Assembly: GCF_003065385.1 (NCBI RefSeq)
Contig: NZ_CP023277.1
Span: 1,204,829-1,268,828, forward strand
Direction: 5' to 3'
Origin: Polynucleobacter acidiphobus
GTDB lineage: Bacteria; Pseudomonadota; Gammaproteobacteria; Burkholderiales; Burkholderiaceae
DNA: 64,000 nucleotides
Shown here: positions 8,267 through 37,146 of the stretch, piece after piece
Layout of the letters: each line of letters begins with the position of its first letter
Numbering within the stretch: the stretch's first letter is position 1
The notes under the pieces: generated by a model
Told to the model about the DNA's origin: nothing
The model's input: the letters and a program-made list of their open reading frames with translations, nothing else
The model's database searches: none
Made by a program: the position numbers and the translations under genes

Positions 8267-8977
8267 CTAACCTGGGGTTTTAGTGATTCGGTAGCCGCTA
8301 CCGCGCACGGTCTCAATGTATTGATCACAATTGGCTTCGGATAAGGCTGAACGCAAGCGCTTAATGTGAACGTCGACAGTCCGCTCCTCAATGTAAACCT
8401 GGTCACCCCAGACCCGATCGAGGAGATGCGAACGGGAATGAACCCGCTCTGGATTACTCATAAAGAACTGAAGTAAACGAAATTCCGTTGGTCCTAAATT
8501 AACAAACTGATCTTTTGCACCCGGATGAGACACAGTGACCCGATGGGTTGCAGGATCCAATTGCATGGGGCCTAACTTTAAGACCTCCTCACCAAGCCCC
8601 AAGACCGAATTTCGTCGCAGTAATGCCTTCACTCGAGCAATGAGCTCCTTGGGTGAAAAGGGCTTCGTAACGTAATCATCCGCTCCAGAATCCAGCCCCT
8701 GAATCTTATCGGCCTCCGCCCCCTTGGCGGTGAGCATCAGAATCGGAATATTTTGTAACTCAGGGCTCGCGCGTAGCTCTTTCGTAAATTGCACCCCTGA
8801 CTTACCGGGCATCATCCAATCCAAAATCAAAAGATCAGGTCGATGAACACGGATCATCCGCATTGCCTCATCAGCCTGCAAGGCACGATCGACCGTAAAT
8901 CCTGAATGACTTAAGTTAACCGCAATTAGTTCTGCAATCGAAGGTTCGTCTTCAACAATCAGAATGCGATGGGGCAT
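8267..8977 (-). CDS. phoB: Phosphate regulon response regulator
   Basis: A 236-residue OmpR/PhoB-type regulator. The receiver domain has acidic residues near 9-11, the phosphorylated Asp53 in LDWMMPG, Thr83 and Lys105 (TKPFSPK). The C-terminal winged-helix DNA-binding domain carries the typical HSRSHLLDRVWG and ERTVDVHIKRLR stretches. Phosphorylated PhoB binds tandem 7-mers at 11-base spacing; such sites are scattered through the first 23 kb of this window. It lies 3 bases after phoU in the operon, so translation is probably coupled. Confidence 0.96.
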   Translation of the reverse strand: MPHRILIVEDEPSIAELIAVNLSHSGFTVDRALQADEAMRMIRVHRPDLLILDWMMPGKSGVQFTKELRASPELQNIPILMLTAKGAEADKIQGLDSGADDYVTKPFSPKELIARVKALLRRNSVLGLGEEVLKLGPMQLDPATHRVTVSHPGAKDQFVNLGPTEFRLLQFFMSNPERVHSRSHLLDRVWGDQVYIEERTVDVHIKRLRSALSEANCDQYIETVRGSGYRITKTPG

Positions 8978-14371: not shown

Positions 14372-14452
14372 TCCAGACCTCGGGACAATTTAAGGAAACC
14401 CAGTCTACCAAAGCAATATGACAATAAATTGCTGCGCTGCACAATCATTGGG

Positions 14453-14497
14453 CTGTCATGAACCTGACATGAAACGGTCACAGAGTAAATTCATAAT
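14453..14497 (+). promoter_or_regulatory. Three-unit Pho-box promoter of small RNA 1
   Basis: Units CTGTCAT (14453), CTGACAT (14464) and CGGTCAC (14475) follow an exact 11-base period. A 10-base gap leads to CATAAT (14492-14497), a good -10. No coding frame follows; instead a terminator appears about 30 bases after the -10. The -10 lies inside a small inverted repeat, ATTCAT/ATGAAT (14489-14501). Confidence 0.75.
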
Positions 14498-14503
14498 GAA
14501 TGC

Positions 14504-14550
14504 ACTCCCTGAAAGTTGTTATCACCGCCCCGAGTGGGCGGTCTTTTTTT
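14504..14550 (+). ncRNA. Predicted PhoB-activated small RNA 1 (about 47 nt)
   Basis: Start is placed seven bases after the -10. The transcript would open with ACTCCCT, contain GTTGTT at 14516-14521, and end in the hairpin CCGCCC/GGGCGG followed by TCTTTTTTT. It has no start codon with a ribosome binding site. The next plus-strand gene begins about 240 bases further on and an oppositely oriented gene lies between, so this is not a leader. A second locus at 23299-23344 has the same promoter geometry, the same CTCCCT and GTTGTT, and the same hairpin. CTCCCT could pair with AGGGAG-type ribosome binding sites. No known RNA family is recognised; this is a prediction. Confidence 0.6.
14524..14550 (+). 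terminator. Rho-independent terminator of small RNA 1
   Basis: ACCGCCC (14524-14530) pairs with GGGCGGT (14536-14542) around a 5-base loop and is followed by CTTTTTTT. On the minus strand there is no T run, so the signal is directional and belongs to the plus-strand transcript rather than to the convergent small gene ending at 14549. Confidence 0.85.
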
Positions 14551-14755
14551 AAGAGGCGAGGTTTTGATCGACTTGACTGCACAGCACATCCCCGTAACTA
14601 CACAAAATGCAGCAATCATTTTTACTAACGCCATAGGGACGATGGCAATGCGCACATTGATGAAATTGCTTACTATCGCTGGTATCGACCGAGATAACTT
14701 CGGTTGCTTGGCAGTGGGGACACGTTAGCGTTGCTTGCATGAATTGATTCATCAT
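14549..14755 (-). CDS. Small zinc-ribbon-like protein
   Basis: A 68-residue cysteine-rich protein. CPHC (13-16) and CAHC (34-37) form a typical zinc ribbon, followed by NDCCILCSYG, resembling the GDCCxFCSYG tail I recall from small uncharacterised betaproteobacterial proteins. Two adjacent start codons exist (14755 and 14752); AGGAAA lies upstream. Its stop touches the end of the small RNA 1 terminator on the other strand. Function is unknown; metal binding is inferred from the cysteine pattern. Confidence 0.7.
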   Translation of the reverse strand: MMNQFMQATLTCPHCQATEVISVDTSDSKQFHQCAHCHRPYGVSKNDCCILCSYGDVLCSQVDQNLAS

Positions 14756-14791
14756 TACCGTGCGATTTTCCTGTGGAATTATTTCAATCTG

Positions 14792-15742
14792 ATGAAATCA
14801 ATGAAAAATAATCTGCGTTATATTCTGACCACCGCTCTCCTTAGCGTTGCTTGCCTGACTCTAGCGCCAGCTAACGCTAATCCAATTCGATTTGTGACGC
14901 TTGGTGACATGCCCTATCGCTCTGCCGACGAAGCTGCGTTTATCAATCTCATCACTGAAATCAATCAGACCAATCCCGCATTCACGATCTTTGTCGGTGA
15001 TACTAAAAGTGGTGGTTCGCCCTGCACCAATGCCTATCTTGAATCCATCTGGAAATCCTTCAATCGCTTTGAGAACCCATTAATTTATACGCCTGGTGAT
15101 AACGAATGGACCGATTGCCATCGCCCGTCAGCTGGTTCATTTAATCCAGAGGAGCGCTTGCAATTTATTCGAGAGTTGTATTTTCCGAATAACAACAGCT
15201 TGGGGAAAAAGCCTCTGCGCCTAATTCGGCAAGCAGATATTGATCCGGCACATAAACTCTTTGTCGAGAATGCCTACTGGGTCAGTGGCGCCACTCTCTT
15301 TGCGACAGTGCACGTGGTTGGCTCAAACAATAATTTTGAGAATGCAAGTGAATACGCCATGCGCAATCGCGCTAATCTTGCTTGGCTTGATTATGTTGTT
15401 AAAGTTGCACAGGAGCGTGCACTCGATCATCTGGTAATTGCGATGCAAGCAGATTTATTTTATTCCCCTGAGCAAGCAAGTTCATCAAAAAGTGGGTTAC
15501 GCGATACGATTGCCCGTCTCAATCAACTCTTATCGCAATGGAATAAACCCGCGTTGGTAATCCATGGCGATAGCCATCAACTCATCATTGATCAGCCCTT
15601 CAAACACCCGGGTACGAAACGCGTTATTGAGCGTGCCTATCGAATACAAGTGATGGGTGATCATCAAGTTGAAGCGCTTGAAATCACCATCGATTCAGGT
15701 AAGCGCAGCCCCTTTAGTTTTCGTCCACTGGTGATTCGTTAG
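14792..15742 (+). CDS. Exported calcineurin-like metallophosphoesterase
   Basis: The start at 14792 (316 residues) or 14801 is preferred because it places a clean signal peptide at the N-terminus: KNNLRYILTTALL followed by cleavage near ANA-NP. Recognisable metallophosphoesterase motifs are GDMPY in place of the usual D-x-H, VGDTK, GDNEWTDC in place of GNHE/D, and HGDSH near the C-terminus. It probably hydrolyses phosphate esters in the periplasm. The changed metal motifs define a divergent subfamily, so the substrate is uncertain. It converges with phoX, three bases apart, and is divergent from the zinc-ribbon gene. No Pho box is seen upstream. Confidence 0.75.
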   Translation: MKSMKNNLRYILTTALLSVACLTLAPANANPIRFVTLGDMPYRSADEAAFINLITEINQTNPAFTIFVGDTKSGGSPCTNAYLESIWKSFNRFENPLIYTPGDNEWTDCHRPSAGSFNPEERLQFIRELYFPNNNSLGKKPLRLIRQADIDPAHKLFVENAYWVSGATLFATVHVVGSNNNFENASEYAMRNRANLAWLDYVVKVAQERALDHLVIAMQADLFYSPEQASSSKSGLRDTIARLNQLLSQWNKPALVIHGDSHQLIIDQPFKHPGTKRVIERAYRIQVMGDHQVEALEITIDSGKRSPFSFRPLVIR

Positions 15743-15745
15743 CGA

Positions 15746-17644
15746 CTATGCTCCGACGGGCTTGCCGTCCTCGCGCCAAATCACAATCGTTGCTGAACGT
15801 GGTCGCGAGAACAACTTGCGATCCGGCCAGTCACTAAATGCTTTTGGCTTATCGGGATTACTGCGCTCACTCGGACTCTCGCCAGGGTGTTGAATATTGA
15901 CAAACATCGTTTTGTAATCCGGTGTTAGATCGACGCCAGTCACCTCAGAGCCATTTGGACCAATTAGAAAACGCCTAAACTCGCGCGTCACCGGGTCTGC
16001 AGCAAACATCATATTGTTGGTAATCCGTGCATAGGCGCCCTTCCCAAGAGCTCCAGAAGAGATATCGGTCTGAGTCCATAAGATACCGCGTTGATCAAAC
16101 CACAAACCATCGGGTGAGCCAAACACATCCCCCCGAATGTTCCCTTTTAAGTTGGGGTCGGTGTTATCAGGGTCACCTGCCAAGACAAAGATCTCCCAAT
16201 CGAATCGATCATTCGCTGCGTCCTGCTGACGTGGCCGCCAGCGGATGATGTGCCCCATCAAATTATTCGCACGGGGACTAGCAGCATTAACAGGAAACTC
16301 TTTGCCACGCTGATTGTTGTTGGTCAGTGCTACATAAACATCTTTCGCGGTTGGATGAACCGCTACCCACTCCGGGCGATCCAAAGGAGTTGCTTTCACC
16401 TGATCAGCCGCTAAACGTGTTTCAACCAAGATGTATGCTTGATCGGCAAAACCGTTCTCTGGAGTTAAGCCATTTTGCCCAAATACCAAAGGAATCCATC
16501 GACCTTCCCCATTATCAGAAAACTGTGCAACCGATAAGGTGCCTTCATCGAGAAGTGTGCGATTAAGCTCGGGTTGATTGGGTTGATACTTATTCTTGCT
16601 GACATAGCGATACACATATTCACCGCGCTGATCGTCGCCCATATACACCACCACCCGTCCATCCTTCGCCAAGGTCACTTCAGCACCCTCGTGCTTAAAG
16701 CGCCCTAATGCGGTGCGCTTGATCGGTGCTTGATCGGGATTACGTGGATCAATTTCAACGACCCAACCAAAGCGATTGGGCTCATTGGGATTGAGATCCA
16801 CGTTAAAGCGCTCATCAAACTCTTCCCAGCGGTATCCAAAGCCTTTAGCATTAATACCAATGCGCTGTTCTTCCTTGGATACCTTCCCCTTCTTCACAAA
16901 GTATCCGTTAATGTTCTCTTCGCAGGTCAGGTAAGTACCCCATGGCGTTACACCATTTGCGCAATTGTTAATCGTGCCTAAGGCCAAACGACCTTTGGGA
17001 TCGGATGCGGTTTGCAGGTACTGGCTGCCAGCGGCTGGGCCTGAGATAGCGCACGGAGTGTAGCCAGTAATGCGACGGGTATAGGGTCCTGAGACCACTT
17101 GCCAACTTCCCTTCTCATCCTTTTGAATATGTGCAATCGTGACACCATGTGCAGCCTGACTTTTTCTGACCTTCTCCAATGACCAGTTCTTCATGCCATC
17201 TGGATGCAAGAGTCCATCGTCGGTGTATTCGTGATTAACAACCCATAAGCCTTTATTGGAAGAACCTTGATCGGGAAAGAATGCACAACCGTCATGGTGC
17301 ATACCAAATTGTTTGGCTTGCTGCTCAGGTGTATTAATCACATCGTAGGAAATCACCGGAAACTTACCGTTAATTGGATCTCCCCAAGCTGCCAATACTG
17401 CCCAGCGGTATCCTTTGGGAACCACAATACCATCCGTTGCCATGCTAAGTGGGACGGATTCAAAGGTAAACGGTTTGGCTGCGCCCCACACGGATTTTGC
17501 AGTTTGTGCAAATCCAAAATTAGATCCAAAGAGCGCAACTACTGCAGCACTCGATTTCAGAAATAAGCGACGCTGCGATTGCTCGGTAATGGCTTGGGCA
17601 GGATCAAATCGCTGATTAACAATCGGGTTATCGAATTCATTCAT
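15746..17644 (-). CDS. phoX: PhoX-family alkaline phosphatase, Tat-exported
   Basis: A 632-residue DUF839/PhoX phosphatase. The N-terminus has a twin-arginine signal (SQRRLFLKS, Arg25-Arg26) and a hydrophobic segment ending near FAQ, so it is exported folded. The protein contains GSSNKGLWVVNHEYTDD near 126-142, TCEENINGYF and the C-terminal LTPDYKTMFVNIQHPGE typical of the family. PhoX enzymes use calcium and iron and release phosphate from organic esters. A Pho box lies 42 bases upstream of the start. It acts with the neighbouring GDPD and metallophosphoesterase to feed PstS. Confidence 0.92.
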   Translation of the reverse strand: MNEFDNPIVNQRFDPAQAITEQSQRRLFLKSSAAVVALFGSNFGFAQTAKSVWGAAKPFTFESVPLSMATDGIVVPKGYRWAVLAAWGDPINGKFPVISYDVINTPEQQAKQFGMHHDGCAFFPDQGSSNKGLWVVNHEYTDDGLLHPDGMKNWSLEKVRKSQAAHGVTIAHIQKDEKGSWQVVSGPYTRRITGYTPCAISGPAAGSQYLQTASDPKGRLALGTINNCANGVTPWGTYLTCEENINGYFVKKGKVSKEEQRIGINAKGFGYRWEEFDERFNVDLNPNEPNRFGWVVEIDPRNPDQAPIKRTALGRFKHEGAEVTLAKDGRVVVYMGDDQRGEYVYRYVSKNKYQPNQPELNRTLLDEGTLSVAQFSDNGEGRWIPLVFGQNGLTPENGFADQAYILVETRLAADQVKATPLDRPEWVAVHPTAKDVYVALTNNNQRGKEFPVNAASPRANNLMGHIIRWRPRQQDAANDRFDWEIFVLAGDPDNTDPNLKGNIRGDVFGSPDGLWFDQRGILWTQTDISSGALGKGAYARITNNMMFAADPVTREFRRFLIGPNGSEVTGVDLTPDYKTMFVNIQHPGESPSERSNPDKPKAFSDWPDRKLFSRPRSATIVIWREDGKPVGA

Positions 17645-17666
17645 GGGTCACCTCGTAGTAAGAATT

Positions 17667-17703
17667 TATATATTCAAACGAATTAATGACAATTTTATGA
17701 ATA
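17667..17703 (-). promoter_or_regulatory. Pho box and AT-rich -10 of phoX
   Basis: On the minus strand TATTCAT (17703-17697), AAAA, then TTGTCAT (17692-17686) match the PhoB box in phase, with the canonical A-rich spacer. TATATA at 17672-17667 can act as -10. The start codon is at 17644. Confidence 0.65.
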
Positions 17704-17858
17704 GATATTCGATATGGCGTCTGCGCATTCTAGGGGCTAACTTTCACAATGGCTTAATAAAGTTGTCATGTTAGTGAGCAACTATCCAATAGGTACGTCT
17801 TTCATGACTCCAAATGCATCAAAAGTAATGAATATATTGAGCATAACCTAGGATAAGG

Positions 17859-18131
17859 ATGACAACTTTCACTACCGAAGATCGTATTAACGCTGAAATC
17901 GAACCCATTCCATTTTTTGGGGTTGTAGTTATTAACTCTGAAAAAATTCGAGTCTATCGGTTTAAATCATGGGATGCGGAAGATGATAACCACTTTCAAC
18001 TTTCTGAATTCTATGCAACACGTCAATTTATTGAACAACTACATCATGTGAGCATCATTGAGCACGACTTTATCGTGGTTGATTCATTGCTTTTAGATCA
18101 CTTGGGACGCTACTTTATTGAAACACCTTAA
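17859..18131 (+). CDS. Hypothetical 90-residue acidic protein
   Basis: I do not recognise this protein. It begins MTTFTTEDRINAEIEPIPFFG after a purine-rich GGATAAGG ribosome binding site, which supports the start. It is acidic, soluble and has no signal peptide. A partial Pho-like motif (CTTTCAC at 17741, TTGTCAT at 17763, with a poor middle unit) lies upstream. It is followed after 15 bases by a frameshifted small gene, suggesting a former two-gene unit. It is divergent from phoX. Confidence 0.6.
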   Translation: MTTFTTEDRINAEIEPIPFFGVVVINSEKIRVYRFKSWDAEDDNHFQLSEFYATRQFIEQLHHVSIIEHDFIVVDSLLLDHLGRYFIETP

Positions 18132-18146
18132 TGAACTATTTATCTT

Positions 18147-18373
18147 ATGAATAAATACATCGTTCCTGTCACTTTTAAGGTTGAAACAAAAATAGTGATT
18201 GAGGCAGAAAACCCTTCTGATGCGATTGAAATTGCATCGGACTTAGGAATTCATAATTTCCTATTATTGATTTTTTTCATCACTGTATTGATGAAAATAT
18301 TACTGATGAAGCTACGATTGAATTAGTCGAAAAAACAAACGATAAGGCGTTAAGGCATCTTGAATTGTTATGA
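18147..18373 (+). pseudogene. Small acidic gene with a one-base frameshift
   Basis: The frame from ATG 18147 encodes MNKYIVPVTFKVETKIVIEA and continues to about codon 38, then turns into a low-complexity Leu/Ile string ending at 18326. A -1 shift near 18258-18260 restores an ordinary acidic sequence (IDFFHHCIDENITDEAT) to a stop at 18373, about 75 residues in all. The N-terminus resembles short DpnD/PcfM-like beta-hairpin proteins. A single missing base, either a real lesion or a sequencing error beside an AT-rich tract, explains it. Confidence 0.55.
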
Positions 18374-18472
18374 GTCACTTGGAACTTATAAATGATTTAT
18401 GCAGCGGGCCTCTAGTAACCATTCATCAATGAGAACCCGTTACACACATCTTTAGCATTTGCCATTTAGATT

Positions 18473-19693
18473 TCACTGCAGACCCATACAATTTGCGTAA
18501 TACGTAACGGTAGCTGGCCAATCCGAAAATACCCCCTTCACACCAACCTGTTGAGCTAGTATATCGAGCACCTCAAAGGTTTGACCATCGTTATTGATTG
18601 CGCCCTTAATCGACTGATGATACCAAGCACCGCCGTTTACTAAGGGGCCGTCTCGCTCTAGAGTCCATGTAATGATATTTAATCCTGCCGCTTTTGCTAC
18701 TTTTGCATATTCAGAAGGAATGATTTGATTACGATCATTTAAAGTCAGTAACACCCAAATCGGGGGACCAATATAGCGGACACCCAGCTGATAAAGCTCC
18801 TGCATTGTTGGTTTCAGTTCTTCTGGTTTTGCAGGGTTAAAATTTTTGAGCAAATAACGATCGTCTAAATAAACCGCTTGTTTACCAAACTCTGGTTCAT
18901 TCCTTATCCAATACAAAATATCATTTAAGTTAAATGATTGTGGAAAGACATCCCTTGCGGGAATTCGCATCATTTTGTACTCATCAATTAATGCTTGAGC
19001 ATATTGCTCTTGGGAAAATCCTTGATATGGCATCGGAACAGATGGGGCTTTAAGTTCTGGCGTGAACTTTCCTCCAAATTTTTTAAATAGCTCTATAGAC
19101 TCACGATGCGTTAATAAAGTTCCCCCACGATTTACATAAAGATCCGTCCGCCAAGATGGGGTTCCTTTCATAAACTCTGCTCTATCTTTAGCCTGTCGAT
19201 TAAAACCATCCATCTTTCCTTTTAAAGTTTTAAACTCGGTCAAAGTAATATCAGAAGTTCGACACTCAGCAGATGCTGGATTTTTATCTGAAACTGGGTT
19301 GAACGATTTGGTGCATTGGTTGGCTAAAGGAGTAAGCAAAATATTCGTTGTTGTATGAAGATCATTTTGGGCATGACGACACACCAATTGCTTATCTTTT
19401 GTAAATGTAACATCGCATTCAAAAATACCTGCTCCCATTAAATACGCCGCAAAATTTGACTCCAAAGTATGCTCTGGAAACTGCAAAGGGGCACCACGGT
19501 GAGCGATTGAGAAATTCGATTTTTTAGGTAATTGATTCCTACAGCTTGACAATTTATTTTTTAAGGGACTTTCTGGCATTGCCTCAATTAAGATGAATGG
19601 TCTAACACCATATTGATGCTCTTGACCAATGATCGGCGAACAGAAGATTCCTGTCAGAATCAAAAGTATTAATTTTTTTATCATACGATTCAA
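18473..19693 (-). CDS. glpQ: Glycerophosphodiester phosphodiesterase, exported (GlpQ-like)
   Basis: A 406-residue GDPD with a signal peptide of about 23 residues. Catalytic residues are visible: His65-Arg66 in IAHRGAP, Glu92 and Asp94 in FECDVTF, and His107 in CRHAQND. It splits glycerophosphodiesters from phospholipid turnover into glycerol-3-phosphate and an alcohol. It is longer than E. coli GlpQ (about 358), with an insertion before the HRG motif. A strong Pho box lies upstream, so it is a phosphate-scavenging enzyme. It is divergent from the ceramidase-like gene. Confidence 0.9.
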   Translation of the reverse strand: MNRMIKKLILLILTGIFCSPIIGQEHQYGVRPFILIEAMPESPLKNKLSSCRNQLPKKSNFSIAHRGAPLQFPEHTLESNFAAYLMGAGIFECDVTFTKDKQLVCRHAQNDLHTTTNILLTPLANQCTKSFNPVSDKNPASAECRTSDITLTEFKTLKGKMDGFNRQAKDRAEFMKGTPSWRTDLYVNRGGTLLTHRESIELFKKFGGKFTPELKAPSVPMPYQGFSQEQYAQALIDEYKMMRIPARDVFPQSFNLNDILYWIRNEPEFGKQAVYLDDRYLLKNFNPAKPEELKPTMQELYQLGVRYIGPPIWVLLTLNDRNQIIPSEYAKVAKAAGLNIITWTLERDGPLVNGGAWYHQSIKGAINNDGQTFEVLDILAQQVGVKGVFSDWPATVTYYANCMGLQ

Positions 19694-19723
19694 TATTATT
19701 ACTAGCTATATTTAAAATTCTTT

Positions 19724-19741
19724 ATGACAAGATGATGACGA
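19724..19741 (-). promoter_or_regulatory. Pho box of the glycerophosphodiesterase gene
   Basis: On the minus strand TCGTCAT (19741-19735), CATC, TTGTCAT (19730-19724) are in 11-base phase. An AT-rich stretch suitable as -10 follows at 19705-19714. The gene starts at 19693. Confidence 0.7.
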
Positions 19742-19788
19742 ATGCTTCATAACTATGAATTGACTTGTTTTATGCATAGCAAATCACT

Positions 19789-20442
19789 ATGCAGCTATTG
19801 AGCCCAATCGATATCTATTGCGAGCGCTTAGATGCCAGCTTTTGGTCTGAGCCAATCAATGCGATCACCAACTTAGCGTTCATCATCGCAGGATTTCTTA
19901 TTTGGCGAATAGGATCACCGCGCTCTAGGTTAATGGCTATTTTGCTCATTCTGATTGGTCTAGGTAGCTTTAGCTTTCATACTTTTGCTAATCGACTAAC
20001 GGGTCTCTTAGATGTTCTTGCGATCGCACTGTACTTAATCAGCTTTGCATATCTAATCCCAAAACAATGGTCTTGGGGCTCGCGCTGGACTCCAATCGGA
20101 TCGGTGATTGGGCTCTTTATTCTGATTGCGCTTTGTCAATTAGCAATCAATGCTGTGAAGCCCGTGTTCCCTTGGGCTCCCCCTGGAATGTATTTGGGGG
20201 CTTGGTCAGCACTGCTGCTCTATGCCGTGATCACTCAGTATTCCAATCCTATCGCTGCACGCTATTTATGGCTGGCAGTCTTGGTGTTCCCTTTCTCGCT
20301 CCTGAGCCGTCAGCTCGACCTGCCCTTGTGCGATTCTGGCTTTAGTACCCACTGGCTATGGCATGTACTCAATGGTCTGACACTCTATTTAACCAGCTAT
20401 GGCCTTTGCTTAACGCGCAATACCTCAAAACCAACTATCTGA
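19789..20442 (+). CDS. Ceramidase-like integral membrane hydrolase
   Basis: A 217-residue protein with about seven membrane segments and the motif set of the alkaline ceramidase/CREST family: Cys11-Glu12 in DIYCERLDASFWSEP with the following NAITNLAF, His64 in GSFSFHTFAN, Asp75, and the metal-binding His188 and His192 in HWLWHVLNG. Eukaryotic members cleave ceramide amide bonds; bacterial members are poorly known. It is divergent from the Pho-controlled GDPD and overlaps the convergent glutamate-synthase-like gene by 8 bases. A role in membrane lipid turnover is inferred. Confidence 0.75.
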   Translation: MQLLSPIDIYCERLDASFWSEPINAITNLAFIIAGFLIWRIGSPRSRLMAILLILIGLGSFSFHTFANRLTGLLDVLAIALYLISFAYLIPKQWSWGSRWTPIGSVIGLFILIALCQLAINAVKPVFPWAPPGMYLGAWSALLLYAVITQYSNPIAARYLWLAVLVFPFSLLSRQLDLPLCDSGFSTHWLWHVLNGLTLYLTSYGLCLTRNTSKPTI

Positions 20443-22045
20443 AGCGACTTGCGCTGGAACTAGTCCAAGCATCACCCAGACCCGCCTGGAACTGATTGAG
20501 TTTTTGTGCACCGTTACGTTGCAATAAGGCGCCCTCGTCAAGATCCAGAATCAATGAGGCCAAATACTCAGATTGATAACTACCGCTTCGGCACATCATC
20601 ATCTGGGGCGTGAGATAGCGCGGATGCGAGATCCCAGCTGAGGCCAATAGTCCGCGCAATGCCTTCAGGGTATTTTGATGAAAGTTATAGACGCGTTGCG
20701 CCTTATCAACCGGATCTAAAGATCGTTGCCGTAAGGGGTTTTGAGTAGCAACACCGGTTGGGCATTGGTCGGTATTGCAAGAGCGCGACTGAATACAACC
20801 CAGAGCGAACATAAAACCGCGCGCTGAGTTACACCAATCGGCCCCCAGAGCACTGACACGAACCATATCAAATCCAGAAATAATCTTGCCTGCTACACCA
20901 ATGCGAACGTGATCTCGAAGACCAACCCCAATCAAAGTCGCATGAACCAAACGCAAGCCATCCCGCATCGGCATACCCACATGGTCAACAAATTCAGTGG
21001 GGGCTGAACCAGTACCACCTTCACTACCATCGATTACAAAAAAGTCTGGGTAGATACCAGTTTCAAGCATTGCCTTCACGATGGCAAACCAATCGCCAGG
21101 TTGACCAATGCACAGTTTGAAGCCAATGGGCTTACCGCCCGATCGTGCACGCAAGGCAGTGACAAACTCTAACATTTCAATTGGGGTTTTAAACGCAGAG
21201 TGTGCTGCCGGAGAAATACAATCCTGACCCATCGGGATTTTGCGGGTGAACGCGATTTCGGGGGTAATCTTGGCAGCCGGTAGCACGCCTCCGTGGCCTG
21301 GTTTTGCCCCCTGAGAAAGTTTGATTTCAATCATCTTGACGGAATCCAATTGTGCAACTTGCGCAAAGAGATCAATATCAAATTGTCCTGCAGGGGTGCG
21401 GCAACCAAAGTAGCCCGATCCAATTTCCCAAATCAGATCTCCACCGTTCTGCAAATGATAGGGTGAGACCGATCCTTCACCGGTATCGTGCGCAAAGCCG
21501 CCCAGCTTAGCTCCCTTGTTTAAAGCGAGTATGGCATTGGCTGACAATGAGCCAAAACTCATGGCTGAGATATTAAATAGTGATGCTGAGTATGGCATTG
21601 CGCATTGCTCATTCCCAATCTGCACCCGCAGATCCTCTATCTGCGACACATCTAACGGGGTACTACTTTGACTCAACCACTCGTAATTGGGTTGGTAGAC
21701 ATCATCAATGGTGCCAAAGGGCCGCTGATCAGAAACATTCTTGGAGCGTTGATAAACTAAGGCACGCTGATTTCGAGAGAAAGGCAACTTCTCGCGATCT
21801 GACTCAATAAAGTACTGTCTAATCTCGGGCCGAATAAACTCGAGCCAAAACCGCAGATGCCCAATCACAGGGTAATTGCGAAGCAATGAATGCTTTGTTT
21901 GGATCTGGTCAACAATCCCTACCCCAAAAATGGTGAGAGAGACCGCCATCAAAATCCACCACAGCAACTCCCCATTCGCAATTATCAATCCAAGGAATAG
22001 CAGGGCTAGGATACCGCTAAGCTGCCAAACAAAATAGCGCGACAT
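20435..22045 (-). CDS. FMN-binding glutamate-synthase-like protein, membrane-anchored
   Basis: A 536-residue protein with two N-terminal membrane helices (about 5-45), then a complete glutamate synthase central domain (FMN barrel): SAMSFGSLSANAI, the DTGEGSVSPYH segment, KLSQGAKPGHGG, IDGSEGGTGSAP and the cysteine-bearing GCIQSRSCNTDQCPTG that ligates the 3Fe-4S cluster in true GltB. It lacks the amidotransferase domain, so it is not a complete glutamate synthase. Its reaction is unknown. It follows ppk2 and a 62-residue gene on the same strand, with 26 bases between, so it may be co-transcribed with them. Confidence 0.8.
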   Translation of the reverse strand: MSRYFVWQLSGILALLFLGLIIANGELLWWILMAVSLTIFGVGIVDQIQTKHSLLRNYPVIGHLRFWLEFIRPEIRQYFIESDREKLPFSRNQRALVYQRSKNVSDQRPFGTIDDVYQPNYEWLSQSSTPLDVSQIEDLRVQIGNEQCAMPYSASLFNISAMSFGSLSANAILALNKGAKLGGFAHDTGEGSVSPYHLQNGGDLIWEIGSGYFGCRTPAGQFDIDLFAQVAQLDSVKMIEIKLSQGAKPGHGGVLPAAKITPEIAFTRKIPMGQDCISPAAHSAFKTPIEMLEFVTALRARSGGKPIGFKLCIGQPGDWFAIVKAMLETGIYPDFFVIDGSEGGTGSAPTEFVDHVGMPMRDGLRLVHATLIGVGLRDHVRIGVAGKIISGFDMVRVSALGADWCNSARGFMFALGCIQSRSCNTDQCPTGVATQNPLRQRSLDPVDKAQRVYNFHQNTLKALRGLLASAGISHPRYLTPQMMMCRSGSYQSEYLASLILDLDEGALLQRNGAQKLNQFQAGLGDAWTSSSASRFR

Positions 22046-22071
22046 GCTTGCAGTTAAATCAAGAGGGTCGT

Positions 22072-22260
22072 TTATTCAGCGTTTGGAATTTTTCCAGCCG
22101 CAAATGAGGCGGGGTCATCCTTCTCATAAAGGCACCAGTACTGGATTTCATTGAATAGGAACTCTCGTTCTTTGTAGGTTAGATTGCGAAACTCTTCTAA
22201 GGAGATTCCCTCGCCCGCTCGTAACTGTTTCATAAATGCAATCATTTGATCCCGCATCAC
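22072..22260 (-). CDS. Hypothetical 62-residue protein in the ppk2 unit
   Basis: I do not recognise this protein. It is mainly helical and contains LTYKEREFLFNEIQYWCLYEKDDPASFAA in two pieces. It begins 19 bases after the ppk2 stop on the same strand, with AAAAAGGGG just upstream of its start, so it is probably co-expressed with ppk2. Two consecutive ATG codons are present. A small partner or regulator of PPK2 is possible but unsupported. Confidence 0.6.
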   Translation of the reverse strand: MMRDQMIAFMKQLRAGEGISLEEFRNLTYKEREFLFNEIQYWCLYEKDDPASFAAGKIPNAE

Positions 22261-22279
22261 AGCCCCTTTTTAAATGAAA

Positions 22280-23185
22280 TTAGTAAATATCTGGTACGTA
22301 CATTTCTTTTGGTACTGGTCCGCGAATGTAATCCGGATTATGTACACGCTCAGGTAGAACAATATGAGGATGCTCAATCTCCTGATACGGGATTTGCGCA
22401 AGCAAATGATGGATGCAATTAAGTCTAGCGCGCTTTTTATCATTCGCAGCCACCACCCACCAAGGTGCTGCAGGTCGATGAGTAGCCTCCAGCATTGCCT
22501 CTTTCGCTTTGGTGTAATCCTCCCAGCGCCGTCTAGATTCCAAATCCATAGGGCTTAATTTCCATTGCTTTAAGGGATCGTTGATACGTTGGGTGAAGCG
22601 GTTGTATTGCTCCTCATCGGAAATCGAGAACCAGTACTTGATTAAGATAATTCCGGAGCCGATGATCATTTTTTCAAACTCGGGAACGGTCTCAAGGAAC
22701 TCCCGATACTCTTTATCGGTACAAAAGCCCATGACCTTCTCAACGCCAGCGCGGTTATACCAACTGCGATCAAATAAAACGATTTCGCCTGCTGCCGGCA
22801 AGTGTGCAATATAGCGCTGGAAGTACCACTGAGTCTTCTCCCGCTCCGATGGCGCAGATAAGGCAACCACTCGGCAAACCCGTGGATTTAGGCGCTGAGT
22901 AATGCGTTTAATAGCGCCGCCCTTACCCGCTGAGTCACGACCTTCAAACAGAACTACGACCTTGAGTTTTTGATGAACTACCCAGTCTTGTAATTTGATG
23001 AGCTCTTTTTGAAGACGAAAAAGCTCCCGAAAGTAAAACTGGCGGTTTAGTGAAGTGAGGCCATCGCCATCACCCCCCAATCGCTGATCATCGAGCTCGA
23101 GCTCAAGCTCCTCATCTAAGTCATCAAGGATTTCATCTTGGGCTTTTTTGTACCACTCAGAAAGTTCTTCCTGGTTTATCTTCAC
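22280..23185 (-). CDS. ppk2: Polyphosphate kinase 2, class I-like
   Basis: A 301-residue PPK2. Walker A is FEGRDSAGKGGAIKRIT (about 80-96), Walker B is VLFDRSWYNRAGVEKVMGF (about 137-155), and KQWKLSPMDLESRRRWEDYT is also characteristic. PPK2 enzymes use polyphosphate to phosphorylate nucleoside diphosphates or monophosphates. The N-terminus has a very acidic stretch (DDLDEELELELDD). A Pho box precedes it. The window therefore encodes PPK1, PPK2 and PPX, a full polyphosphate cycle. Confidence 0.92.
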   Translation of the reverse strand: MKINQEELSEWYKKAQDEILDDLDEELELELDDQRLGGDGDGLTSLNRQFYFRELFRLQKELIKLQDWVVHQKLKVVVLFEGRDSAGKGGAIKRITQRLNPRVCRVVALSAPSEREKTQWYFQRYIAHLPAAGEIVLFDRSWYNRAGVEKVMGFCTDKEYREFLETVPEFEKMIIGSGIILIKYWFSISDEEQYNRFTQRINDPLKQWKLSPMDLESRRRWEDYTKAKEAMLEATHRPAAPWWVVAANDKKRARLNCIHHLLAQIPYQEIEHPHIVLPERVHNPDYIRGPVPKEMYVPDIY

Positions 23186-23205
23186 AGTTTGCTCCTTTGA
23201 GTGTT

Positions 23206-23239
23206 ACCTTACAAAATCCCTATGACTCCAATATGACAA
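23206..23239 (-). promoter_or_regulatory. Pho box and -10 of ppk2
   Basis: On the minus strand TTGTCAT (23239-23233) and GAGTCAT (23228-23222) are 11 bases apart. After a 10-base gap TAAGGT (23211-23206) can be the -10. The gene starts at 23185. It lies back to back with the plus-strand Pho box of small RNA 2, nine bases away. Confidence 0.65.
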
Positions 23240-23247
23240 TTCAATTG

Positions 23248-23292
23248 CTGACACAAAACTGACATCACAGTGTCATCATTGGAGATCATGAT
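23248..23292 (+). promoter_or_regulatory. Three-unit Pho-box promoter of small RNA 2
   Basis: Units CTGACAC (23248), CTGACAT (23259) and GTGTCAT (23270) have an exact 11-base period. After a 10-base gap CATGAT (23287-23292) is the -10, the same geometry as at 14453-14497. The -10 is enclosed in a perfect inverted repeat, GGAGATCA/TGATCTCC (23281-23302). Confidence 0.75.
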
Positions 23293-23298
23293 CTTGAT

Positions 23299-23344
23299 CT
23301 CCCTTCATGTTGTTTTTGATCCGCCCCTTGTGGGCGGTTTTTTT
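23299..23344 (+). ncRNA. Predicted PhoB-activated small RNA 2 (about 46 nt)
   Basis: The transcript would start near CTCCCT (23299), carry GTTGTT (23309-23314) and end with the CCGCCC/GGGCGG hairpin and seven Ts. Length from CTCCCT to the end of the T run is 46 bases, the same as at 14505-14550. Unlike copy 1, a small gene starts 47 bases after the terminator, so an attenuated leader is an alternative reading. The promoter, seed and terminator shared with copy 1 favour a small RNA family. No known family is recognised. Confidence 0.55.
23321..23344 (+). terminator. Rho-independent terminator of small RNA 2
   Basis: CCGCCC (23321-23326) pairs with GGGCGG (23332-23337) around the loop CTTGT, followed by seven Ts. 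It lies upstream of the small gene at 23391, so that gene needs read-through or a separate promoter. Confidence 0.88.
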
Positions 23345-23390
23345 GGGAGTCTGGATAAAGTTCGACCTAAGATCGATACGGAGACACGCC

Positions 23391-23561
23391 ATGCAAAACA
23401 AAGATAAGATTGCGATTGCTGAGCTTGAGAATCAGTTCAAGCACTACGATATTGACCATCAAGTGAAAGATCGCTTGATCTGGCAATACCTCATTAATCG
23501 TAAGATGAAACGCGAGATGGATATCCAACAGAATGAAGTGGACACCGATTGGGAAAACTAA
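23391..23561 (+). CDS. Hypothetical 56-residue protein
   Basis: The start at 23391 is chosen because GGAG lies seven bases upstream; the longer frame from 23307 would pass through the terminator hairpin. The product begins [16 protein letters not shown], is charged and predicted helical, with no signal peptide or membrane segment. I do not recognise it. It overlaps the 3' end of the convergent glmM by four bases. It may be expressed by read-through from the Pho promoter of small RNA 2. Confidence 0.6.
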
Positions 23562-33900: not shown

Positions 33901-35087
33901 TAGCGAGCTCCTTGGCCAGCGGCATTCATGAAGTGCATGAAGCGGTCAAATAAATAGGCAATGTCATGTGGGCCTGGGGAAGCCTCTGGGTGCCCCTGAA
34001 AACAAAAGGCTGGCTTATCTTTCCAGGCGAGGCCTTGCAAGGAACCATCAAACAAAGAGATATGTGTGACCCGCAAATCATCGGGTAAAGTCTTTGCGTC
34101 GACCGCAAAGCCATGGTTCTGTGAAGTGATCGCTACTCGACCACTGTCTAAATCTTTTACGGGATGGTTCGCGCCATGGTGCCCAAACTTCATTTTCAAG
34201 GTCTTCGCACCCGCAGCCAAGCCCATAATCTGATGACCCAAGCAAATACCAAAGGTCGGAATATTTTTACTGATAATGGTTTGAGCCGCACTAATCGCAT
34301 AATCACAGGGCTCGGGGTCGCCAGGGCCATTGGATAAAAATACGCCATCGGGTTTTAGCGCCAATACTTCAGCCACCGGGGTTTTGGCAGGCACAACTGT
34401 GAGCGCACAACCGCGCTCGGCCAGCATACGCAGAATATTGCGCTTGACACCAAAGTCATAGGCCACAACCCGCTTACTTGGGTTCTTCATCACTCTGAAT
34501 GCGGGCTTACCATGCTCACCATGCAACTGCCACTCCCCTTCTTGCCACTCATAGGCAGCATTGGTGGTAACCACTTGCGCAAGATCAAGGCCTGCCATTC
34601 CCGGAAATGCCTTAGCAAGGCTTAATGCACGCTTGGCAAGCGCATCGACATCATCACCAATCGTGCCAGCCACAATCGCGCCTGATTGAGCGCCGCGGTC
34701 ACGTAACAGGCGAGTTAACTTACGGGTATCAATACCAGCGATACCAGGGACCTTAGCAGTGCGCAAATAATGATCGAGACTATCTTCGGCTCGAAAGTTC
34801 GAGACACGTGCAGACAGATCTTTAATGATGAGACCGGCAGCATAGATTTTTGCTGACTCAGCGTCTTGGGCATTGACACCCACATTGCCGATGTGCGGAT
34901 AGGTTAAGGTGACGAGCTGACGTGCGTAACTGGGATCGGTGATGATTTCTTGATAACCGGTTAATGCGGTATTGAAAACAACTTCACCACTGGTCTCACC
35001 AGGAGCGCCGATACTTTGACCAGAAAAAATGGAGCCGTCAGCAAGAGCTAAAACAGCGGGGGGAAAGGAAGGAAGCAAGGGCGACAA
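33900..35087 (-). CDS. carA: Carbamoyl-phosphate synthase small subunit
   Basis: The glutaminase subunit that supplies ammonia to CarB. The class I amidotransferase nucleophile is in [13 protein letters not shown], and the His/Glu pair in [14 protein letters not shown]. The start is uncertain: TTG 35087 is preferred because TGGAG lies five bases before it, giving 395 residues; TTG 35078 would give MLPSFPPAV, and the frame extends to TTG 35138. The codons all being TTG suggests weak initiation. A 130-base gap separates it from prpE. Confidence 0.94.
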
Positions 35088-35268
35088 ACAATCTCCAATA
35101 CCCTGTTGCCGTCCAACACTTTTTGCCCCAAAAGACAAACCCGAGGCGAAATTGCGGGGAGGTAAGTGTCTTTAAGCGCTAGGGCAAATTATTAGTTACT
35201 GATAGCGTAATGATACCAGTTCTCTGCCCCTCACCCTGCCTTCACGCAAAACGGTTTGCCTTGCCCGG

Positions 35269-37146
35269 CTACTTTCCAATCACCTGTTTGATCTGCGCTA
35301 GAACGGATTGATCCTCCATCGTGCTGATATCTCCAGGATCGCGCCCTTCTGCAACCGCTTGCAATGCCCGTCGCACAATCTTGCCCGAACGCGTCTTTGG
35401 TAATGCACTCACCAAGTACACCCGTGCTGGTCGTGCCACCGCACCCAATTGAGAGTCAACGGTCTTCATGACCTCTGCTTCCATGGTCTCGGTTTTACTG
35501 GGATCTTTTGCGATCACAAAGCCGATGGCTACTTGCCCCTTGAGTTGATCTTCCACACCAACGACTGCTACTTCGGCAACATTGGCATGGCTTGAGATAC
35601 TCTCTTCGATCTCGCGTGTTCCTAATCGATGTCCAGCGACGTTAATCACATCATCGGTACGGCCCAAGATGAAGAAGTAACCATCCTTATCTTTAATTGC
35701 CCAATCAAAGGTGGAATACACCATCTTGCCAGGTACGGTCTCCCAATACGTCTTGATAAACCGTTGATCATCACCCCATACCGTTTGCATGCATCCGGGT
35801 GGCAATGGCCCTTCAATCGCAACCACGCCCTTTTGATCAGGACCCAACTCGGCACCGGTTGCTTCATCGAGGAGTTTCATGTTGTAGCCATACACCGGCA
35901 CACCGGGCGAGCCAAATTTATGTGGCATCACCTCAACGCCTCGTTGAATCGCCAAAATCGGCCAACCGGTCTCGGTCTGCCAGTAGTTATCCACCACTGG
36001 CTTCTTCAGTGCATCATGAATCCACGATGCCGTTGGTTCATCGAGCGGCTCACCGGCCAAGAACAGAGTGCGCAGTGTTGATAGATTGTATTTACTGAGG
36101 AAGGCAGGGTCCTGTTTCTTGAGCACCCGCACTGCGGTGGGGGCAGAGAACATCACCGATACCTTGTACTTCTCAACCAAGCTCCACCAAATACCCGCAT
36201 CAGGGCGCAAGGGTGTGCCCTCGTACATGATGGTGGCCATGCCATTAATCAATGGCCCATAGATAATGTAGCTATGGCCTACCACCCAACCAATGTCGGA
36301 GGTGGTAAACATGGTCTCACCTGGATTACCACCAAAGATAAGGCGCATCGAGCTTGCCAGTGCAACGGCATACCCACCGGTATCCCGCTGAACACCCTTG
36401 GGTTTGCCAGTGGTGCCCGAGGTATACAAAATATAGGAGGGATGGGTTGCATCGACCCACTCGACGGGAACCTTGGTATTGAGATGCTTCTCACGCTCAG
36501 TGGCGTAATCCAAATCGCGGTTGGCCACGGTGGTGTATTCCGAGAGACCACGGTTCACAATCAATACCTTCTCAGGCTTAGCGGTTGATAGTGTGATCGC
36601 CTCATCTAGGAGTGGCTTGTAAGGCACCGCCTTGCCACCGCGCATTCCGGCTTCGGCAGTAATGATCATCTTGGGCTTCGCATCATCGATCCGGGAAGCC
36701 AAACTATGCGATGCAAATCCCCCAAACACCACCGAGTGAATCGCACCGATGCGGGTACAGGCGAGCATTGCAAAGCAGGCTTGCGCGATCATTGGCATGT
36801 AGATCAAAACACGATCGCCCTTCTTCACACCATTGGCTTGCAAGATCGCAGCCATGCGATTGACCTCATCGTGCAGCTCTGCAAATGTGTAGGCCTGCTC
36901 CTGATTGGTTTCGGTGGAGACTGCAACCAGTGCGATTTGGTTAGCGCGATCCTTCAAATGCCGATCAACGGCGTTATGGCACAAATTGGTTTGCCCACCG
37001 ACAAACCACTTCGCAAACGGTGGATTGGAATAATCGAGGACTTGTGAAAACGGCTGATGCCAATCAACTAATTTGGCCTGCTCGGACCAAAATGATTTTG
37101 GATCCCGAATGGAGTTCTCATGAAATGATTTGTAGCCAGTACTCAT
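35269..37146 (-). CDS. prpE: Propionate-CoA ligase (PrpE-type acyl-CoA synthetase)
   Basis: A 625-residue AMP-forming acyl-CoA synthetase. The P-loop YTSGTTGKPKG (about 240-250), the adenylate motif NYWQTETGWP and the C-terminal acetylatable lysine in KTRSGKIVRR are present. The N-terminal segment DYSNPPFAKWFVGG with TNLCHNAVDRHL is the PrpE pattern rather than that of acetyl-CoA synthetase. It activates propionate, and possibly acetate. No other methylcitrate-cycle gene is in the window. Confidence 0.88.
   Translation of the reverse strand: MSTGYKSFHENSIRDPKSFWSEQAKLVDWHQPFSQVLDYSNPPFAKWFVGGQTNLCHNAVDRHLKDRANQIALVAVSTETNQEQAYTFAELHDEVNRMAAILQANGVKKGDRVLIYMPMIAQACFAMLACTRIGAIHSVVFGGFASHSLASRIDDAKPKMIITAEAGMRGGKAVPYKPLLDEAITLSTAKPEKVLIVNRGLSEYTTVANRDLDYATEREKHLNTKVPVEWVDATHPSYILYTSGTTGKPKGVQRDTGGYAVALASSMRLIFGGNPGETMFTTSDIGWVVGHSYIIYGPLINGMATIMYEGTPLRPDAGIWWSLVEKYKVSVMFSAPTAVRVLKKQDPAFLSKYNLSTLRTLFLAGEPLDEPTASWIHDALKKPVVDNYWQTETGWPILAIQRGVEVMPHKFGSPGVPVYGYNMKLLDEATGAELGPDQKGVVAIEGPLPPGCMQTVWGDDQRFIKTYWETVPGKMVYSTFDWAIKDKDGYFFILGRTDDVINVAGHRLGTREIEESISSHANVAEVAVVGVEDQLKGQVAIGFVIAKDPSKTETMEAEVMKTVDSQLGAVARPARVYLVSALPKTRSGKIVRRALQAVAEGRDPGDISTMEDQSVLAQIKQVIGK

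Follow-up and report, generated by a model that had tools for sequence, protein, structure and literature searches.

The window analyzed here is a 64,000-nucleotide (nt) stretch of Polynucleobacter acidiphobus (NCBI RefSeq assembly GCF_003065385.1, contig NZ_CP023277.1, positions 1,204,829 to 1,268,828 of the forward strand), a member of what is described as an abundant genus of freshwater plankton. The genome is a single contig of 1.85 Mb. The region is a Pho island with genes for a histidine kinase, phoB, phoU, and pstBACS, together with a phasin-like gene, a 68-amino-acid frame, a metallophosphatase gene, phoX, a GDPD gene, and ppk2. Within it lie two loci, A and B, 8.8 kb apart, each of which has a putative small RNA (sRNA) behind a Pho-type promoter. 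Locus A is flanked by the phasin gene (divergent) and the 68-amino-acid frame (convergent), and locus B by ppk2 (divergent) and a 56-amino-acid frame read in the same direction. Their features are as follows; congeneric genomes are designated by G numbers, G000 being P. acidiphobus itself.

14453..14485, plus strand: Pho box of locus A, three 11-nt PhoB-type repeats, from sequence reading
14492..14497, plus strand: -10 of locus A, CATAAT, ten bases past the last repeat pair
14505..14550, plus strand: putative sRNA of locus A, running from CTCCCT through the T run, with syntenic homologues in G384, G389, and G470
14505..14510, plus strand: proposed seed of A, CTCCCT, kept in all seven A and B loci
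23248..23280, plus strand: Pho box of locus B, three 11-nt PhoB-type repeats, from sequence reading
23287..23292, plus strand: -10 of locus B, CATGAT, ten bases past the last repeat pair
23299..23344, plus strand: putative sRNA of locus B, running from CTCCCT through the T run, with syntenic homologues in G384 and G454
23299..23304, plus strand: proposed seed of B, CTCCCT, likewise kept in all seven loci

After the -10, locus A has 7 bases, CTCCCT, 4 bases, GTTGTT, 4 bases, the stem-loop CCGCCC-CGAGT-GGGCGG, TC, and seven Ts ending at 14550; locus B has 6 bases, CTCCCT, 4 bases, GTTGTT, 6 bases, CCGCCC-CTTGT-GGGCGG, and seven Ts ending at 23344. Counted from CTCCCT through the last T, each is 46 nt long. 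A first-pass annotation, made from the sequence alone, had described both loci in these terms as paralogues of one undescribed RNA family, and the -10, the 6 to 7 bases after it, both hexamers, the stem, the 5-base loop beginning with C and ending with T, and the T run are all where it placed them; the distance between CTCCCT and GTTGTT, which it gave as about six bases, is 4 in both loci. The fixed length that it noted is true of this pair, but over the seven loci described below the length varies from 44 to 49 nt (measured through the seventh T of the run).

Transcription is expected to start some 6 to 8 bases downstream of a -10, and so the two RNAs would begin at or just before CTCCCT; RNA A possibly starts a few bases upstream of 14505. 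The Pho regulon promoter pattern combines 11-nt direct repeats resembling CTGTCAT with a -10 about ten bases past a pair of them. A and B have it, and the spacing of ten was also seen, by eye, in their homologues. The repeats score 11 to 13 of 14 against the consensus CTGTCAT-4-CTGTCAT. RNA folding predicted the terminator hairpin only (−13.1 kcal/mol in A and −11.5 kcal/mol in B), and the first ∼20 bases are unpaired in both; the 5′ part is likewise open in the folds predicted for A of G389 and for B of G454. Both loci can therefore be read as having the layout of an sRNA gene, with its own putative promoter, an intrinsic terminator with a U tail, and no conserved reading frame. An inverted repeat across the -10 of B (GGAGATCA/TGATCTCC) was considered as a further element and rejected, as it is not kept in G384.

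The strong evidence for homology of A and B is comparative, from the sequences of related genomes. When the DNA of B was used to search 186 genomes of the genus, relatives were found in G384, G454, G470, and G389. A-type loci lie between the phasin and 68-amino-acid genes in P. acidiphobus, G384, and G389, and in G470 one adjoins the 68-amino-acid gene where a contig ends. B-type loci lie upstream of the 56-amino-acid frame in P. acidiphobus, G384, and G454, with phoX instead of ppk2 as the neighbor in G454. The covariance-model check suggested by the first-pass annotation was run over the genus with a model, R1, built from six A and B loci including their promoters; the 186 genomes searched included P. 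acidiphobus, and Infernal's stricter filters, which lose weak matches, were used. R1 gave seven matches at an E value of ≤2.2e-8, all at the two syntenic positions and in five species; the next match had an E value of 2.5e-4. Among the seven was A of G384 (E 2.2e-8), which was outside the training set.

CTCCCT and the terminal CCGCC/GGCGG hairpin are present in all seven loci. The internal hexamer that had been proposed as a shared element is indeed GTTGTT in A and B, but elsewhere it is GTTG (G389 and G470), GTTGTC (A of G384), or GTAG (G454). In both G389 and G470, RNA A reads CTCCCTTCGTGTTG, which is close to the CTCCCTTCATGTTG of B, and A of P. acidiphobus has CTCCCTGAAAGTTG. Before the stem, A of G389 is identical to B at 17 of 22 positions, a value reached by 0 of 5,000 shuffles, versus 15 of 22 for A of P. 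acidiphobus. Because the loci are syntenic, and because the A orthologues in G389 and G470 are closer to B than is A of P. acidiphobus, we consider A and B homologous, as first proposed; homologous copies within one genome, by which sibling RNAs are recognized, are present here. At the level of sequence, then, the A/B family is real and narrow, the paralogy of A and B is well supported, and the link to Pho is sound.

Some relatives have one copy only. At the A position in G454, CTCCCT and the hairpin are both absent; at the B position in G389, a Pho box is present and CTCCCT and the hairpin are absent. The B position in G470 has the same Pho box followed by a run of N, which leaves absence of the RNA there not fully shown. 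A phoX tree of 13 rows placed P. acidiphobus, G384, and G454 together (98/95) and G389 and G470 beside a sister lineage (91/88). If this tree holds, A would date back at least to the split, and B at least to the origin of the group of P. acidiphobus, G384, and G454.

Within the P. acidiphobus genome, R1 scored B (E 1.4e-18) and A (E 1.6e-15), both of which are training sequences, and these alone; the additional Pho-box-linked matches elsewhere in the genome that had been named as decisive did not appear. The pattern CTCCCTN{2,10}GTTGTTN{2,12}CCGCC, which was picked after A and B were known, occurs at exactly 2 places in the 1.85-Mb genome, A and B, and at 0 in the reversed control. The exact stem of B followed by a T run is found once; the TC before the Ts of A escapes this pattern. 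The result that had been said to speak against homology, many unrelated transcripts with the same terminator and none with CTCCCT, was not seen. BLASTN with the 171- and 226-bp loci against 61 genomes matched P. acidiphobus only, in a sample that had 36 other members of the genus and from which the close ones were missing, and a 24-base exact pattern gave 0 matches across the genome collection, from which records near the window were possibly excluded. With a looser pattern, 23 of 398 family genomes matched (24 places), and P. acidiphobus and G384 were real among the genomes examined. Scanning the ppk2 and phasin loci first taken from congeners and, in 18 congeners, the ∼1 kb that follows the second ppk2 yielded no further locus.

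Comparison with G384 suggests where B is constrained. The numbers of columns changed were 0 of 46 in the RNA, 6 of 18 in the spacer, 5 of 33 in the box, and 17 of 69 upstream. The leader downstream of B, with 2 of 47 changed, is nearly as conserved as the RNA, and so the constraint on B is clear only relative to the promoter side. Locus A is looser, with 7 of 46 changed in the RNA, 10 of 33 in the box, and 10 of 80 upstream, and A of G384 may be decaying. Between B and its homologue in G454, 12 of 49 columns of the RNA and 10 of 19 of the spacer were changed.

With moderate confidence, we interpret A and B as paralogous genes of one undescribed sRNA family, encoding PhoB-induced siblings of ∼46 nt whose 5′ CUCCCU would pair with AGGGAG-type Shine-Dalgarno sites. 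The proposed regulator is encoded in the same window:

8267..8977, minus strand: phoB (NCBIfam TIGR02154, 316.5 bits versus a cutoff of 296.2)

The presence of phoB and the pst genes in the window with A and B was counted in favor of this interpretation. The promoter, terminator, and open seed derive from the sequence and the predicted folds, and we infer expression, PhoB dependence, start site, use of Hfq, direction of regulation, and targets. When phosphate is exhausted, phosphorylated PhoB on the three repeats would activate transcription from, or just before, CTCCCT, and the hairpin and T run would end it, giving an RNA of ∼46 nt. The ∼20 unpaired 5′ nucleotides would expose CUCCCU as a seed, and the U tail would probably be held by an Hfq-type chaperone. 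By pairing with AGGGAG-type Shine-Dalgarno sequences, the seed would block translation of a set of mRNAs. Having both genes would raise the dosage and let each back up the other, consistent with relatives in which either A or B is absent.

The variant Shine-Dalgarno sequence AGGGAG is the complement of CUCCCU, and we searched the five carriers for candidate targets with AAGGGAGN{2,12}ATG. There were 25 matches in P. acidiphobus, 25 in G384, 37 in G389, 28 in G454, and 19 in G470, compared with 12, 17, 7, 17, and 4, respectively, in the reversed control. In P. acidiphobus, 22 of 24 distinct sites were inspected, many of which are not gene starts; the remaining two are inside B on the other strand and at 1,791,504. 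The gene starts behind AAGGGAG included those of pufB, rpmI (ribosomal protein L35), an HMA-domain gene, a GST gene, a Gcw_chp gene, a two-copy transposase gene, and a possible FixH gene (below the cutoff). The antenna-complex gene (Pfam LHC) was assigned as pufB by the position of residues. Its AAGGGAG site alone is identical across the five carriers, and 3 of these have the rpmI site. The predicted pairing energies are, for the 5′ part of B, −12.9 kcal/mol with the pufB leader and −10.7 kcal/mol with the rpmI leader and, for the 5′ part of A, −11.4 and −10.8 kcal/mol, respectively. A stretch of the 16S rRNA tail gave −9.0 kcal/mol with the pufB leader and −9.7 kcal/mol with the rpmI leader, as for any ribosome-binding site.

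Two observations on these genes stand apart. The antenna-complex gene (L183, at C1:668301 on) indicates that the organism probably has photosynthesis genes. The transposase start (HTH_Tnp_1) is present in two copies (L222 and L223, at C1:252225 and C1:317565), with AAGGGAG as the ribosome-binding site.

Several of our results weigh against the sibling sRNA interpretation. R1 found no third copy in the P. acidiphobus genome (third match, E 0.5), and the family is confined to seven loci in 5 of the 186 genomes. In G384, the Pho box of A is degraded, and a weak 5′ hairpin is predicted around the seed. The exact pufB site occurs in 10 of the 186 genomes, 5 of which are without A or B, so its conservation is no support for the sRNA; pufB and rpmI are candidate targets. 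The likeness of A to B on its own is only moderately improbable: within the 24 nt before the stem, two ordered hexamers at near-equal spacing occurred in 7 of 20,000 shuffle pairs; the ungapped identity of 14 was reached by 67 of 20,000 shuffles; and the gapped alignment score of the region ahead of the stem was reached by 1 of 5,000. The two loci could then be unrelated Pho promoters with similar strong terminators, their hexamers convergent or fortuitous and their short RNAs by-products, since a common regulator and a common type of terminator would produce similarity in both promoter and terminator. Against this stand the retention of CTCCCT in all seven loci despite changed spacers, the closeness of A of G389 to B, and the recovery by R1 of the held-out locus with no third locus in the genome, and we regard such an origin as very unlikely.

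The conserved leader behind B bears on another explanation, in which B acts mainly as a leader for the gene that follows:

23391-23561, plus strand: 56-amino-acid frame without a Pfam match; kept in G384, G389, G454, and G470

B would then belong to a Pho-controlled mRNA, its terminator would serve as an attenuator through pairing of CTCCC with GGGAG, and A would be a related or detached element. The sequence GGGAGTCT (23345-23352) is directly behind the T run of B in P. acidiphobus, G384, and G454 and could pair with CTCCC in a read-through RNA, and the gene looks Pho-controlled in G389, where the box occupies the same place before it without CTCCCT or terminator. However, A is the same RNA with no GGGAG behind it (AAGAGGCG) and with a convergent gene as the next one, and the A loci of G389 and G470 are intact with no gene to attenuate. 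We consider attenuation unlikely. A small reading frame in B, and by analogy in A, is extremely improbable: an ATG at 23307 is in frame with the one at 23391 and would extend the 56-amino-acid gene through the hairpin, but it is missing from B of G454 and from all four A loci, and it would come only 8 nt after the proposed 5′ end, where the sequence preceding it, CTCCCTTC, is no ribosome-binding site.

If A and B are sibling sRNAs, they appear to be new. At the gathering score, Rfam has no family for them, in agreement with their description as undescribed, and A had no match up to an E value of 1 in a permissive Rfam search. The SorX consensus (RF02784) is similar in having CUCCCUGUUG shortly before its terminator, but B scores 23.4 bits, about half the gathering score of 46.6, the aligned 5′ half falls in the promoter of B, and A has no match. 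In the parts of the literature available to us, few bacterial sRNAs were tied directly to PhoB, and no paper was recognized as describing the A/B RNA; it is also not among the RNAs named in the portion consulted of a structured-RNA survey that included one Polynucleobacter genome (icd-II, carA, and HRC-28-1; PMC8632094).

AbcR1 and AbcR2 of the Alphaproteobacteria use a single-stranded 6-nt motif, M1 (CUCCCA), to pair with mRNAs, partly in 5′ untranslated regions; M1 is in the first of several hairpins, a second motif, GUUCCC, is between the first and second hairpins, and abcR2 is driven by VtlR (PMC5461406). A and B resemble them as two siblings with a CUCCC-type motif but differ in having CUCCCU at an open 5′ end, one hairpin, no GUUCCC, and a Pho-type promoter. 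NmsRA and NmsRB of Neisseria, also Betaproteobacteria, are encoded in tandem, belong to the stringent response, and repress translation by anti-Shine-Dalgarno motifs (PMC5362039). Such a motif is proposed for A and B, which, however, are 8.8 kb apart with Pho-type promoters. By analogy, A and B may work like AbcR or NmsR siblings without their defining features. A precedent for control by PhoB is an E. coli sRNA, PhoB induced and Hfq using, that acts on rpoS and is said to raise its translation (PMC8829014, citing Ruiz and Silhavy 2003); its likeness to A and B lies in this mode of control, and the direction of regulation proposed for A and B differs. With an RNA gene pair at fixed positions, natural single-copy variants, and a 6-nt candidate seed, both PhoB-sRNA control and sibling redundancy would be directly testable.

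R1 also gave weak matches in G538 (E 2.5e-4) and G461 (E 7.6e-3). A second model, R2, which also includes these two loci, found two additional ones, in G462 (6.8e-8) and G497 (6.5e-6); in G502, of the same phoX-tree group as these carriers, there was no R2 match at an E value of ≤0.1. When R1 and R2 were run over 52 loci (including 22 named phoX loci with flanks of up to 10 kb), only the known A and B loci scored below 1e-5. The loci of G538, G461, G462, and G497, which we call C type, are each flanked by the 3′ end of a second ppk2 on one side and by a convergent gene of ∼195 amino acids on the other. In each, a Pho box is followed after ten bases by a TAnnnT -10 and then by CTCCTTCG (CTCCCTCG in G497), and the terminator is of the form CCCAGC/GCTGGG. 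Their -10s (TAAAGT, TAACAT, TAAGAT, and TACGAT) are ten bases past a two-repeat box and 17 to 18 bases before CTCC, which would put CTCC ∼10 nt inside the RNA, unlike in A and B. Homology of the C-type RNAs to A and B is unproven.

Over all distinct loci collected, 332 Pho-box-like sites included 11 separate places with a terminator shortly behind, ten of which carry CTCC[CT]; this count is biased, since the models or the DNA of B had led to most of the ten, and it missed A of G384, whose box is too weak. It is conceivable, though rather improbable, that A, B, and the RNAs beside the second ppk2 in four species of the sister lineage come from one ancestor and form a wider family of PhoB-driven CUCC-seed RNAs in this Polynucleobacter lineage, which under phosphate starvation shut off translation of expensive systems, light harvesting (pufB) and ribosome building (rpmI) among them. 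If true, this would link phosphate supply to photosynthesis via RNA. The exception among the 11 places, in G519 (L267, 3365-3430) near a metallophosphatase gene, has a Pho box, TACATT, and a short transcript with a terminator, without CTCC, and is perhaps another Pho RNA. R1 matches similar in strength to those of G538 and G461 were found in G484 and G489 (L192 and L193) without a Pho box; these have a -35/-10-like promoter, GTCCCT, and a CGCCC/GGGCG terminator and are a possible unrelated small RNA.

There were also minor observations on the surroundings of the two loci. The 56-amino-acid frame may encode a small Pho-regulon protein, given the Pho box directly before it, without a terminator, in G389. 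The divergent sides of A (14413-14431) and B (23228-23247) have CAATATGACAAT.AATTG in common, with a score reached by 12 of 2,000 shuffles; these are perhaps the minus-strand promoters of the phasin gene and ppk2. Elsewhere in the window, at 35079-35280 on the minus strand, is a match to the carA RNA motif (Rfam RF04192; 102.2 bits versus 100).

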